Source: a bacterium (GTDB lineage Bacteria > ARS69). From it: a stretch of 6,038 bases of DNA. The stretch covers positions 1 to 6,038 of the forward strand of contig JALGZO010000124.1 of the NCBI GenBank assembly GCA_025774865.1, given 5' to 3'. A program made the position numbers and the translations under genes. Below the pieces are notes generated by a model. That model was not told where the DNA came from and searched no databases. It saw nothing but the letters and a program-made list of their open reading frames with translations. Below, in pieces: positions 619 through 6,038 of this stretch (position 1 is its first letter; each line of letters opens with the position of its first letter).

Positions 619-693
619 CCGAAGGCCGCTGGACCCCGTCGCTGGAAGCTGGTACGTTGCGCGCACTTAGGATGAAGGGCGCGCGCCGGGCAC

Positions 694-1665
694 ATGTATC
701 CGGATCAAAGCCTCTACCCGGCCAACAGCGTGCCGCAGGTCGTCAAGCGCATCAATCAGGCGCTCATGCGCGCGGACCAGATCGACCACCTGGAGGGTCG
801 GAGCGGCACGCACTGGTACGCGCCGATCGTCGCCGACGCCGAGGCCGGCTTCGGTGGTCCGCTGAACGCGTTCGAGCTCATGAAGGGCATGATCGAGGCC
901 GGGGCCGCGGGCGTGCACTTCGAGGATCAACTCGCGTCCGAGAAGAAGTGCGGCCACCTCGGAGGCAAGGTCCTCGTCCCGACGCAGACGTTCGTTCGCA
1001 CTCTGAACGCGGCTCGGCTCGCCGCGGACGTCTTGGACGTCCCGACGATTCTCGTCGCCCGCACGGATGCCGACGCCGCGTCGCTCTTGCTGTCCGACGC
1101 GGACGAGCGCGACCACCGCTTCATGACGGGCGAGAGGACGCCGGAAGGCTTCTTCAAGATCAAGAGCGGCCTCGAATCGGCGATCGCGCGCGGCCTCGCG
1201 TACGCGCCGTACGCAGACCTCGTCTGGTGCGAGACCTCGAGGCCGGACCTCGAGGAGGCGAAGGTATTCGCGGAGGCGATGCACACCGAGTATCCGGATC
1301 AGATGCTCGCGTACAACTGTTCGCCATCGTTCAACTGGAAGGCGAACCTGGACGACGCGACGATCGCGAAGTACCAGCGCGAGATCGGAGCGATGGGCTA
1401 CAAGTTCCAGTTCGTCACGCTGGCGGGATTCCACGCGCTGAACCACAGCATGTTCAGCCTGGCTCGCGGCTACCGGGATCGCGGGATGGCGGCGTACTCC
1501 GAGCTGCAACAGGCGGAGTTCGCGATCGAAGAGGACGGCTACACCGCGACCCGTCACCAGCGGGAGGTGGGCACCGGCTACTTCGACGCCGTCTCTCAGG
1601 CGGTCAACGGCGGGCGGTCGTCCACGACGGCGATGGAGGGCTCCACCGAGGAGGCGCAGTTCTAA
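694..1665 (+). CDS. aceA: Isocitrate lyase, N-terminally truncated (about 104 residues missing)
   Basis: Isocitrate lyase cleaves isocitrate to succinate and glyoxylate in the glyoxylate shunt. The 323 residues match the family closely from YPDQSLYP to the usual STxxxxGSTEExQF C-terminus. The catalytic loop KKCGH is at 84-88 (Cys86), the Mg-binding segment [10 protein letters not shown] starts near 46, and FEDQ is at 76-79. R123 in ARTD, N208/S210/S212 in YNCSPS and T242 in FVTLAGFH correspond to known substrate-binding residues. Family members are usually ~430 residues, and this one begins where about 104 have already passed, so the N-terminal helices and the SGW substrate-binding motif (91-93 in the M. 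tuberculosis enzyme) are absent. In-frame sequence before the ATG reads RARAGH and then a TGA stop at 673-675; AGH still resembles the family's 'AGH/AGQ' before YPDQ. No other frame of the 199-bp upstream gap encodes the missing part, and no good ribosome binding site precedes the ATG. A decayed gene, a rearrangement or an assembly deletion are all possible. Its stop overlaps the stop of the convergent epimerase gene. Confidence 0.88.
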
Positions 1666-2591
1666 CCCAGCACGTGCCGCAGCGCCGTTTCCGGCTCTCT
1701 GAACCGGAACTCGAACCCGGATTCCGAGAGCCGCTTCGGGGCGACTCGTTGGCTCGCGAGCAGCGTCTCGCGAGCCATCTCGCCGAGCGGCTTCAGGGCG
1801 AACTTCGGCGCCATGAGGAATGCGGGGCGACCGAGCGCTCTCGATAGCGCTCTCGTGAACTCCCGGTTCGTGACGGCAGCGGGCGCCACCACGTTCAACG
1901 GACCCTCGAGCTCGGAGTCGAGCACGTGAAGGACGGCGGCCACCGCGTCGCCGAGCTCGATCCAGCTCATGAACTGACGACCGTCGCCGAGTACGGCCCC
2001 GAGCCCCAGCCGGAAGGCGGGCAGCATCTTGGCGAGAGCCCCGCCTCGGCCCAGAACGACCCCGAAGCGAAGCGCGGCCCAGCGGATGCCGGCCTCGCGC
2101 GCCGGGGCGGCCGCCTCTTCCCATTCGCGACAGAGCTCGGCGAGAAAGCCGGTGCCGGCGGACGAGCTCTCGTCCAGTCGCTCGTCGCCGCGGCTGCCGT
2201 ACCAGCCGACCGCCGACGCGGTCAGAAACGTCGCCGGTGGGGCGTCCAGCCGGGCGAGCGTTTCCGCGAGCATCCGCGTGCTTCCGATTCGACTCTCGCG
2301 CAGTCGACGCTTCCTCGCCGCCGTCCACCGTCCGCTCGCGAGGCCCTCGCCCCCGAAGTGGATCGCGGCGGTGGCCCCCTCCAGGGCCGAAGTGTCGTCG
2401 ACGCCACGGGCCGGATTCCACGAAACGAGATCCCGCTCTTCGGCCACGGGTCGCCGGACGAGACGCACGACCTGGACGCCCCGTTCGTCCAGGGCGCGCA
2501 CGAGGGCACGCCCGACGAACCCGACGCCCGAGACGACGATCCGCGGTCGGTCAGCGTGCCCACCACGGCGGGATTCCGCCGAATGCGTCAT
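1662..2591 (-). CDS. TIGR01777-family NAD(P)-binding epimerase/SDR protein (YfcH/SulA-like)
   Basis: This 309-residue protein is an extended short-chain dehydrogenase-like nucleotide-sugar epimerase homologue of the TIGR01777 family (E. coli YfcH type), whose substrate is generally unknown. Visible landmarks are the N-terminal Rossmann loop SGVGFVG (21-27), [14 protein letters not shown] (81-94), [12 protein letters not shown] (126-137), LRFGVVLG (174-181), GRQFMSWI (204-211), [13 protein letters not shown] (233-245) and the C-terminal DUF1731 part GRPAFL...PKRLSESGF (254-293). Length and motif order are normal. One oddity is Ser21 in place of the first glycine of the usual GGTGFIG loop. The ATG at 2589-2591 overlaps the TGA of the upstream clp gene (ATGA) with no obvious Shine-Dalgarno, so translation is probably coupled. 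It is the last gene of the FHA-clp-epimerase operon. Family assignment is secure; the reaction is not known. Confidence 0.92.
1692..1733. other. Strong imperfect hairpin inside the epimerase 3' end, just past the isocitrate lyase stop
   Basis: CGGCTCTC (1692-1699) pairs with GAGAGCCG (1726-1733). Inside this, GAA (1701-1703) pairs with TTC (1722-1724) and CCGG (1704-1707) with CCGG (1717-1720), leaving one mismatch, one bulged A and a 9-nt loop. It begins 27 bp after the isocitrate lyase stop and lies in epimerase coding sequence. No U-tract follows on either strand. It may reduce readthrough between the convergent units or be a by-product of repetitive FEFRFREP codons. Confidence 0.4.
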
Positions 2592-4696
2592 TCGAATCGG
2601 ATTTGATTGTCGCTGAAGGTCAATCGGATCAAGGAGGCCGAGTCGCCGCGGCGAATGAGCTCCTCCGCCAGCGGCTGCCGCACGTACCGGTCGATGACCC
2701 GACGGAGCTCGCGAGCGCCGAATTGCTCGCTGACTCCGTGCGCGATGAGGAATTCGTAGACCTCTTCAGTGAGTTCGATCCGCAGCTCTCGGGCCGCCGC
2801 GAGCCTCTCGAGATCCTGCACGTAGCGATCGATGATGAGGCGGAGCTCCGTTTCGCCCAGCGAATTGAACACGAGGATCTCGTCGATCCGATTGACGAGC
2901 TCCGGCCGAAAGTAGCCCGTCAGCAGCTCGCGCGGCTCGACCGGGGGCTCGGGGGCCGCCGCCTGCGCGGCGAAGCCGAGAGTCTTCGGCGCCTCGGTCG
3001 GTCGGATCTGGAGATTCTCATCGAAGAGGACGACGCAGTGCGGGTGGGTACGAACCGCGGCGACGAGCTGTCCCTCCTGCTCGTGTCCGACGTAACCGGG
3101 CGGTGCGCCGATGAGCTTCGCGACCGAGTGCGGCTCCATGTACTCCGACATGTCGAATCGGACGAGACGCTTCTCGTCGCCGAACAGGTGATGGGCCAGG
3201 CTCTTCGCGAGCTCCGTCTTTCCGACGCCGGTGGGACCGAGAAACAGGAACACCCCGGACGGCCGTTCGGGATCGGACAGGCCGGCTTTCGACGTCATGA
3301 CCGCGCGTGCGATCGCCGAACAGGCGTGATCCTGTCCGAGAACTCGGGATCGGAGCTGCTCCTCCAATTCGAGCAGGTGGCCGACGTCTTCGCCCGAGAG
3401 CCGCTCCAGCGGGATCCCCGTCCACTGGGAAACCGTGCAGGCGACGCTCTCCCGATCGACCGTCCGCGTCGGTGATGACTCGCCGCGGCCTGCGGACAAC
3501 GTCCGGAGCCGGATCCTCGCGCCGCACTGGTCGAGCGCGTCGATGGCCTTGTCGGGCAGGCGGCGGCCGGGCACGTAGCGGACGGTCAACTCGACCGCCG
3601 CCTCGATCGCCTCCGGCGCGATCTCGACCCCATGGTGCAGCTCCAGCGAGGGCGCGAGCCCCTGGAGGACGAGTTTCGTTTCCGACGGCGTCGGCTCCTC
3701 GATCATGACGGGCTCGAACCGGCGCTCGAGGGCGGAGTCCCTCTCGATGTGGCGCCGGTATTCCTCGATGGTCGTCGCGCCGATGCAGCGCAGGTCGCCG
3801 CGGGCGAGCGCCGGCTTCACGATCTCGGAAGCGCCGACCGCCTCGCCCGAACTGGAACCGGCCCCGACCAAGGTGTGGATCTCGTCCAAGAACAGGATCA
3901 CGTCCGGATCGCTCGAGGCCTCCTTCAGGATGCCGAGGATCCGCTCCTCGAAGTCGCCCCGATACTTCGTTCCAGCCACGAGGGAGGCGACGGAGAGCTC
4001 GATGATGCGGCACCCCCGGAACGGATGGCCCTCGTCTTGGTCGAGGAGATGGTTCGCGAGCCCTTCGACGACGGCGGTCTTCCCCACGCCCGCCTCCCCC
4101 ACGAGAACGGGGTTGTTCTTTCTCTTTCGCAAGAGAACCTCGGCGAGCTGGGTCATCTCCTTCTCGCGTCCGATCACCGGCATGAGGGCGCCGTCCTGCG
4201 CCTGGGCCGTGAGGTCGCGCCCGAATCGGGCGAGAAGCGGGTGCTCGGCGTCGGAGGGCTTGACCGGTGCCGGCGCGAACGTCTCGTACAGCTCGGCTAC
4301 CTGAACGTCCTGCGTTCTCAGCAGGCGGATCGGAACGCTGCGACCCTCACGGAAAATGGCGTCGAGAATGTGTTCGTCGCTGATCTGGGGTTTGCGATTC
4401 CGCACCGCGATCTTCGCGGCCAGCCGCAACACCTGCTGACAGCGAGGCGTGACGAGAATCTCCGATCCCCACGGAGAGTGCTCGAGCGGTTCGATTCGGG
4501 AGCGGAGCTGCTCGGTGAATACCGGCAACTCGAGCTTCTGGCTCTCGAACGCGTCGGCCAGCTGATCTTCGCGCGTTTCCGCCAGGGCCATGAACAGATG
4601 CTCGACTCCCAGGAACCCATGGCCGGAGCGGGTACTCTCCTCCGCCGCTTGGCTCATCATGGCCTGCGCAGAGGAAGAGAGGGGGAGTGATTCCAT
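2588..4696 (-). CDS. ClpA/ClpC-like Hsp100 AAA+ unfoldase with an internal deletion in the second AAA+ module
   Basis: This is an ATP-dependent hexameric protein unfoldase, 702 residues. The N-terminal Clp_N domain has two repeats (~8-70 and ~82-135). AAA1 carries Walker A GEAGVGKT (200-207), Walker B VILFLDE (266-272), pore loop KYRG (244-247) and the arginine-finger segment ALERRF (322-327). There is no long ClpB-type coiled-coil middle domain, so the layout is ClpA/ClpC-like. AAA2 has Walker A GPTGVGKT (487-494), pore loop GYVG (534-537), Walker B VVLFDE (555-560), FRPELVNRID (596-605) and sensor-2 GAR (660-662). A 'TLGF' (572-575) sits where ClpC/ClpA carry the ClpP-docking IGF/LGF loop, suggesting a ClpP partner, which is not in this window. 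Between E560 and N561 about 40 conserved residues are missing (the IEKAH helix, the GRLTDGQGR segment and the strand before sensor-1 Asn) with the frame kept. The ATG has AGGAG four bases upstream, 17 bp after the FHA gene. The family is certain; activity of the second ring is doubtful. Confidence 0.93.
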   Translation of the reverse strand: MESLPLSSSAQAMMSQAAEESTRSGHGFLGVEHLFMALAETREDQLADAFESQKLELPVFTEQLRSRIEPLEHSPWGSEILVTPRCQQVLRLAAKIAVRNRKPQISDEHILDAIFREGRSVPIRLLRTQDVQVAELYETFAPAPVKPSDAEHPLLARFGRDLTAQAQDGALMPVIGREKEMTQLAEVLLRKRKNNPVLVGEAGVGKTAVVEGLANHLLDQDEGHPFRGCRIIELSVASLVAGTKYRGDFEERILGILKEASSDPDVILFLDEIHTLVGAGSSSGEAVGASEIVKPALARGDLRCIGATTIEEYRRHIERDSALERRFEPVMIEEPTPSETKLVLQGLAPSLELHHGVEIAPEAIEAAVELTVRYVPGRRLPDKAIDALDQCGARIRLRTLSAGRGESSPTRTVDRESVACTVSQWTGIPLERLSGEDVGHLLELEEQLRSRVLGQDHACSAIARAVMTSKAGLSDPERPSGVFLFLGPTGVGKTELAKSLAHHLFGDEKRLVRFDMSEYMEPHSVAKLIGAPPGYVGHEQEGQLVAAVRTHPHCVVLFDENLQIRPTEAPKTLGFAAQAAAPEPPVEPRELLTGYFRPELVNRIDEILVFNSLGETELRLIIDRYVQDLERLAAARELRIELTEEVYEFLIAHGVSEQFGARELRRVIDRYVRQPLAEELIRRGDSASLIRLTFSDNQIRFE

Positions 4697-4713: not shown

Positions 4714-5118
4714 CTAGCCGGGCGTGAACTCGACGCAGGTGTTGCCGAGAACGAAGAGGCTCCCTGGTCCGATCAGCGTGCGGTCCTCGATTCGCTGCTC
4801 ACCGATGTACGTGCCGTTCCGGCTGCCGGCATCTTCCAGGTAGAAGGAGTTGCCCTCGCGAACGATGCGTGCGTGTCTCGTCGAGACGAGCGGGTCGAGG
4901 CGCAGCGGGAGGTCGCACTGGGCAGCCCGGCCGAGCGTGAGGACGTCGTTCGTCACGCGTGCGGTGACGCCGTCCATCGGTCCCCCGACGACCTCGAGAT
5001 TCATGAAGGACAGGCGCTCGGGCTCGAGCTGGCGGTCCGGGCGTGGGCGCACCGGAACGACACGGGTCGCCGAGAGGTCTTCGCGGGGGGGCCGGCCTTC
5101 AGGAGGGGGAGATTCCAT
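4714..5118 (-). CDS. Small FHA-domain protein (phosphothreonine reader)
   Basis: The protein has 134 residues. An N-terminal Pro/Arg-rich, probably disordered tail (1-~38) precedes one forkhead-associated domain (~40-134). The conserved FHA loops are present: LGR (62-64), STRHARI (79-85) and SRNGTYIG (99-106), which in this family bind phosphothreonine peptides. The start at 5118 is chosen because AGGAG lies 8 bases upstream; the frame stays open to an ATG at 5394, but that extension would overlap the well-supported divergent PPC gene and its sequence is unlike protein. There is no signal peptide or membrane segment, so the protein is cytoplasmic. It is the first gene of the operon with clp, 17 bp before it. 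A Ser/Thr kinase starts about 600 bp away on the other strand and is a candidate writer. Thr18, in the flexible tail (SATRVVPV), could be a phosphorylation site for self-binding as in GarA-type proteins; this is inference. Confidence 0.9.
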   Translation of the reverse strand: MESPPPEGRPPREDLSATRVVPVRPRPDRQLEPERLSFMNLEVVGGPMDGVTARVTNDVLTLGRAAQCDLPLRLDPLVSTRHARIVREGNSFYLEDAGSRNGTYIGEQRIEDRTLIGPGSLFVLGNTCVEFTPG

Positions 5119-5126
5119 CGACGAAA

Positions 5127-5131
5127 CTCCT
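5127..5131 (-). promoter_or_regulatory. Ribosome binding site fixing the FHA gene start
   Basis: On the minus strand AGGAG stands 8 nt before the ATG at 5118-5116. It supports this start rather than the far-upstream ATG at 5394 in the same open frame. Confidence 0.75.
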
Positions 5132-5273
5132 GCTGCGGTGGGGCGAGGATAGCGCAATTCCCACGAGGAAGGAAGACACCCTCGGACGCGGGAGCGTGAC
5201 GAAAGGGGATCGAACTTTTGCCGGACTCGCGCTACGGTGCCTCCCCCGAAAGCGATATCGAACCCGTCAGGCG

Positions 5274-5278
5274 GGAGG
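5274..5278 (+). promoter_or_regulatory. Ribosome binding site fixing the PPC-domain gene start
   Basis: GGAGG lies 6 nt before ATG at 5285-5287. It decides for this start over the in-frame ATG at 5237, which lacks a Shine-Dalgarno and would add 16 residues unlike the family N-terminus. Confidence 0.8.
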
Positions 5279-5284
5279 AAGCAA

Positions 5285-5704
5285 ATGGGTTCCGTGAGAG
5301 TCGAAGGGGGCTGGCTTCTTCGGTTGGAGGTGGGCGAGAAGCTCCCCGACGCGCTCGCCGAGTTCTGCCGAGCGCAGCGCCTACCGTCGGCCACCGCGGA
5401 GGGGCTCGGCGCGCTGCGAGACGTCGAGCTCGGTTACTACGACGTCGATGCGAAGACCTACCGGCGCACGAAGCTCGAGGGCTCTTGGGAGCTCCTGAGT
5501 CTCTGGGCCGACGTCGCCGACTGGGAAGATGGTCCATTCGCGCATACGCATGTCGTTCTGTCCGGTCCCGACTGCGTTGCGCGGGGAGGTCACCTGTTCG
5601 AGGGAACCGTCTCGGTGACCGCCGAGCTCCGGATCTGGGAAACGGGGCGGCCGCTACGGCGCAAGATGAACGACGAGATCCGACTTCACCTTCTCGACCT
5701 CTGA
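5285..5704 (+). CDS. PPC/DUF296-domain protein (COG1661-like)
   Basis: The protein has 139 residues and is made almost entirely of one PPC (plants and prokaryotes conserved) domain. The N-terminus [18 protein letters not shown] is followed by the helix leading to [12 protein letters not shown] (42-53), then the [13 protein letters not shown] stretch, and the conserved histidine motif [12 protein letters not shown]...[15 protein letters not shown] (85-115). His87, His89 and His103 form the family's conserved cluster, probably a metal or ligand site. In plants the domain follows AT-hooks in DNA-binding AHL proteins. There is no AT-hook here, so DNA binding should not be assumed even though database names often say 'DNA-binding protein'. 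Length and motifs look complete. The kinase gene begins 25 bp after its stop, so the two are probably co-transcribed. The cellular role is unknown. Confidence 0.9.
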
Positions 5705-5729
5705 CTCGCGGGCGTGGGATGATGCCGCG

Positions 5730-6038
5730 ATGACTGCGTGTCCTTTCTGCCAATCTCCGATCCCGGTCGGCGGCCGCTTCTGCCCGGCGTGTGGATCACC
5801 GACCGATGAACACCCCCCGACCGCGGGGGCGACGATCGCGGTGTCTCGTTCGTCGACACCCTCCGGCCGGACACCATCCTCGACTCCGCTGCCCGGGGCC
5901 GGCGCGTACGCCGCGGGCACCACGATCCAGGACCGGTACCGGATCGTCGGGTTGCTCGGCCGGGGAGGCATGGGCGAGGTCTACCGGGCCGACGATTTGA
6001 CGCTTGGCCAACCGGTGGCGTTGAAGTTCCTGCCGGAA
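5730..6038 (+). CDS. Zinc-ribbon Ser/Thr protein kinase (PknB-like), 3' partial
   Basis: The frame is open from ATG at 5730 to the window end (103 residues, no stop). The N-terminus holds a zinc-ribbon with two CxxC knuckles, CPFC (4-7) and CPAC (18-21). A Ser/Thr/Pro-rich linker (~24-62) follows, then the start of a Hanks-type kinase domain: [20 protein letters not shown], with the Gly-rich loop at 77-82, and the VALKF segment with the ATP-binding Lys99. Kinases of this build phosphorylate Ser/Thr on cytoplasmic partners and often have C-terminal sensor, TPR, WD40 or membrane parts, which are outside the window. The two other ATGs just upstream (5719, 5722) are out of frame. The Shine-Dalgarno is weak (GGGA about 10 nt upstream), and coupling to the PPC gene 25 bp before is likely. 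Proximity to the divergent FHA gene suggests the FHA protein may read its products. Confidence 0.9.

Follow-up and report, generated by a model that had tools for sequence, protein, structure and literature searches.

A Clp-type unfoldase gene of a draft MAG lacking 40 residues of its second AAA+ ring, most likely through an assembly error

Architecture of the Clp unfoldase

Among the described two-ring Clp unfoldases, ClpA of E. coli (equivalog TIGR02639) has two AAA+ rings, a complete D2 and no M domain, and ClpC (B. subtilis ClpC/MecB, PDB 7abr and 3j3s) carries between D1 and D2 an M domain of ~50 residues, its D2 being complete as well. For the NBD2 of T. thermophilus ClpB the Walker B Glu has been assigned to E668 and the sensor-1 Asn to N709 (PMC3940203), so that exactly 40 residues lie between these two positions. 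Here we describe a Clp/Hsp100-type gene in which this part of D2 is shortened. The stretch of DNA that was analysed (the window) corresponds to contig C125 in its full length of 6038 bp and belongs to a MAG of 4.72 Mb in 785 contigs, which is 92.65% complete and 8.3% contaminated. The features discussed below are collected in Table 1.

Table 1. Coordinates of the Clp gene, its internal junction and the interrupted isocitrate lyase gene in the window
Feature	Position	Strand	Basis
Isocitrate lyase gene without its N-terminal part	694..1665	+	Matches model positions 105-428 of 430
24-nt exact match to contig C39 of the same MAG; isocitrate lyase is split there (misjoin in the window contig)	684..707		Contig comparison
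Clp/Hsp100-type two-ring AAA+ unfoldase gene, 702 aa, without M domain, D2 internally deleted	2588..4696	-	ORF list; Pfam; PDB phmmer (ClpC/ClpB/ClpA)
Junction, ~120 bp (40 codons) absent	2998..3019; after E560 (3016/3017), at latest after P566 (2998/2999)	-	Alignment with 159 D2 modules; alternative register

Using Pfam we found the domains Clp_N, AAA, AAA_lid_9, AAA_2 (half) and ClpB_D2-small in the Clp protein. Clp_N, a D1 with Walker A and Walker B and AAA_lid_9, as in two-ring unfoldases, are present above the Pfam cut-off. The second ring is incomplete: D2-small is present and 40 residues are absent, the AAA_2 match covering only positions 1-83 of the 166 profile positions and ending, at position 83, with E560. 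The linker alignment shows that the D1-D2 linker is short and that the M domain is absent as in ClpA, with a shortfall of 51 residues compared to ClpC homologues. For TIGR02639 the window protein scores 603.8 bits, below the cut-off of 993.15 bits and partly so because of the D2 gap; the model matches 7-560 in a single stretch, and the complete D2 distinguishes ClpA from the window Clp. The best solved relatives by sequence are the ClpC structures, which share with the window Clp the motifs of both rings, whereas both the M domain and the complete D2 of ClpC are lacking here. By architecture the closest protein is that of locus L009 from a Chloroflexi MAG (JACQUR010000306.1), which has a short D1-D2 linker and no M domain, as in the window Clp, and shares with it 32% identity in the N domain, 57% in D1, and 55% before and 38% after the gap in D2. 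The D2 of L009 is complete, however, and contains 43 residues where the window Clp has nothing.

Directly upstream of the Clp gene and on the same strand lies a gene for an FHA-domain protein (window 4714-6038). A cut-off reading frame at the window end, within the same interval, begins with a zinc ribbon and then resembles the start of a serine/threonine kinase. Neither Rfam families nor tRNA genes were detected in the window.

Size, position and distribution of the gap

The Walker B region of D2 reads ...CVVLFDE560 (codon 3019-3017) and is followed directly by N561 (3016-3014) LQIRPTEAPKTLGF, from where the protein continues as N561LQIRPTEAPKTLGF. The window Clp has 35 residues between DE and the FRPE motif; the range is 71-89 among 51 other distinct homologues, and further relatives have 66-79. 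Measured in the alignment from DE to the TLGF position, the distance is 11 residues in the window and 49-51 residues in all 159 homologous D2 modules, 154 of which have 51. Judged from these alignments, what is missing from the window D2 is 40 residues in nearly every comparison. The sequence-only reading had placed a deletion immediately after the Walker B FDE; this observation is confirmed for the assembled sequence, and its coordinates are right. The break can be placed only to within a few codons. With MAFFT and HMMER, NLQIRP is set against IEKAHP, in which case the gap would follow P566 (codon 3001-2999) and the sensor-1 Asn would be lost too; in the alternative register the N-L before TLGF fits the TSNL...LGF of relatives. 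In both registers the segment has lost its alignment-invariant residues E-K-A, L-Q, D, G and F.

We searched for homologues sharing the gap in species-level genome contigs (best 80 loci), in viral contigs, in 60 and then 386 whole genomes, and within the phylum, which is represented by five genomes in the compared set. None of the 159 aligned homologous D2 modules, those of viral loci included, has the gap, and in the further whole-genome relatives D2 was found to be complete as well. In the viral contigs 80 Clp-like loci were found, of which the nine measurable by motif pattern have 75-80 residues in the DE-FRPE stretch and no gap. No orthologue of the window Clp was found in the other four genomes from its phylum. 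The proteins of two genomes, G130 and G266, gave a single matching segment that spanned the junction and were considered as candidates for sharing the gap, but both hold the full IEKAH...TSN stretch and were rejected. Several independent homologues with the same gap, which according to the sequence-only reading would refute an artefact, were thus looked for within this set and not found.

Predicted structure of the shortened D2

The lost piece comprises helix alpha3, the pre-sensor-1 hairpin and the central strand beta4, and the earlier structural reasoning that a core beta strand and the pre-sensor-1 segment are removed proved right. Since beta4 sits between beta1 and beta3 in the AAA+ sheet (PMC5039278), the window D2 would be without its middle strand. 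We compared AlphaFold models of the window D2 and, as control, of the intact L009 D2, which was predicted with nearly the same alignment. The mean pLDDT was 78.8 for the window D2, with values below 50 at module residues 138-162, and 89.6 for the control; such lower pLDDT is a matter of prediction and no proof of misfolding. Over residues 91-140 the block means were 52-69 in the window D2, in which four core strands are left, and 72-97 in the control. The L009 model has a helix at 145-157, the hairpin strands and a strand at 173-179, all of which are absent from the window D2. When both modules were compared to the PDB with Foldseek, the window module gave TM-scores of 0.70-0.78 among the Clp matches listed, and the L009 control gave 0.78-0.89. 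Taken together, nothing in these predictions suggests a closed core for the window D2.

These results bear on a functional reading of the gap, namely a lineage-specific ring variant in which D1 would be the sole motor while the shortened D2 would still assemble as a passive ring or docking platform. Such a variant would agree with the open frame, with the small C-terminal domain, which is still recognised and confidently modelled, and with the retention of the LGF loop region and FRPELVNR. However, a perfect Walker A and Walker B are not expected to last in a long-dead site, the middle strand of the sheet would be absent, both the pLDDT values and the TM-scores fall below those of the intact control, and no second example was seen in any homologue examined. 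We therefore regard a functional one-motor ring as very improbable and rank it last among the readings. According to the sequence-only reading the gap was either a new ring variant, one module of which is inactive, or a deletion of 120 bp that is real or due to assembly. The ring variant is not supported, given that no homologue shares the gap, that the other four genomes of the phylum yielded no orthologue and that no closed module is predicted; the deletion is supported, and the misjoin on the same contig and the lesions on other contigs that are described below favour its assembly form.

Assembly faults in the draft genome and the origin of the gap

The window also contains an isocitrate lyase gene whose beginning is missing, and the point at which it is broken lies 2.3 kb from the Clp gap. 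The window DNA is 82% identical to the isocitrate lyase gene of genome G004 from window position 686 only, and no similarity was found earlier. The N-terminus of isocitrate lyase is located on another contig of this MAG, C39 (L350), immediately behind malate synthase, and the order malate synthase followed by isocitrate lyase was also observed in the genomes G002 and G004. Contig C39 reads ...DANLAGHMYPD and then continues with unrelated sequence, while the window comes from unrelated sequence and enters the gene at the same place; only the 24 nt at window 684-707 are common to both contigs, and these are identical. According to the simplest reading of the two contig sequences, a single gene was broken in two at the 24-mer and its halves were each joined to something else. 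The split of isocitrate lyase over C125 and C39 provides evidence of misassembly on the Clp contig that is independent of the Clp gap. A FlgD-like gene lies at the start of the window and may not be a true neighbour of isocitrate lyase.

Gene-corrupting local assembly errors are a documented problem of uncurated MAGs (PMC7111523). We compared ~431 kb of this MAG with 1.2 Mb of the relative G003 and with other loci. In the comparison of indels between the MAG and G003, made in both directions, most indels were found in low-identity alignments of paralogues and are uninformative. The only case with strong flanks is located on contig C480 (L201, 447-2430, junction ~1142), where a gene for a cytochrome-type membrane protein shows an 89-bp out-of-frame deletion, flanked on each side by 20 residues, which are 75% identical to G003 on one side and 95% on the other. 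No case with comparably conserved flanks emerged from the reciprocal test on G003, so that the genome-wide comparison, which is a sample of ~431 kb, amounts to one clear frameshifting case versus none in the control. On contig C67 (L121, 10412-11086, minus strand) we found a Clp remnant of 224 aa that lacks D1 and ~37 residues around Walker A, as well as 65-77 residues after ...DVFNILL; either decay or a further assembly loss would account for it. Contig C471 (L119) has a scaffold gap of six N at 7728-7733 inside a coding frame resembling ATP:guanido phosphotransferase, and three pairs of contigs (L138/L180, L121/L165 and L131/L163) have unmerged overlaps of 61 to ~137 nt at their ends. An excess of short words shared between MAG contigs, as a sign of misjoins, was not evident, as the counts did not exceed those in G003.

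The MAG contains at least two further Clp unfoldase genes whose D2 is complete (on C471 and C584). These two paralogues have in common an exact 33-mer over DEIEKAHPDVF, of which the copy on C67 has 25 nt. Among the Clp copies, DNA identity is highest in the stretch where the gap of the window Clp starts, a place in which an assembly graph would be most likely to tangle. We also considered that the junction might be a join of two different Clp genes and rejected this, as the sequences on either side match L009 best or nearly best and the other Clp copies of the MAG are no closer. With both sides of the gap nearest to L009, the sequence appears to be one gene with a piece missing.

The main rival of an assembly error is that 120 bp were really and recently deleted, in the organism itself or in a single strain; this would have left a pseudogene or a dead second ring, and the loss would have no selected function. 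The open reading frame and the conserved motifs on either side of the gap are what would be expected soon after a deletion, this Clp copy could be dispensable given the paralogues on C471 and C584 with their complete D2, and the remnant on C67 could likewise be real decay. Gene decay cannot explain the misjoin on the Clp contig, however, because the missing half of isocitrate lyase is intact on another contig, and for decay to have produced three lesions with strongly conserved flanks in so small a sample, it would have to be both recent and unusually active. On balance we consider a real deletion unlikely.

To the reading that the Clp gap arose by a local error in the assembly of this fragmented draft MAG we assign a probability of roughly 0.78. 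In this reading ~120 bp would have been lost by the assembler, the scaffolder or the gap-closer where the Clp paralogues share near-identical DNA, at the DEIEKAHPDVF codons, and the join would have stayed in frame by a one-in-three chance. The real gene would then most likely encode an ordinary ClpA/ClpC-like unfoldase with no M domain and two intact rings. The misjoin on the same contig and the lesions on other contigs favour an assembly error, and we infer a common technical cause for the Clp gap and the other faults of this MAG. Other observations count against an artefact. The Clp deletion is in frame, introduces no stop and has a length that corresponds exactly to the distance from E to N, which is tidier than most artefacts; and the missing 120 bp, unlike the missing piece of isocitrate lyase, were not found on any other contig of the MAG, where we recovered only the paralogues on C584 and C471 and 13 residues on C67.

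If the deletion were real and selected, a Clp ring could function with the central strand absent from one AAA+ core, a result that would come as a surprise for structural biologists. Searching the contig for faults independent of the gap, of which the split neighbour gene is one, proved to be the most informative test that can be made without reads. Faulty assembly, rather than a new kind of machine, most likely accounts for the gap, and the case serves mainly as a warning that an in-frame loss, however precise, may be mistaken for biology in a MAG that is uncurated.
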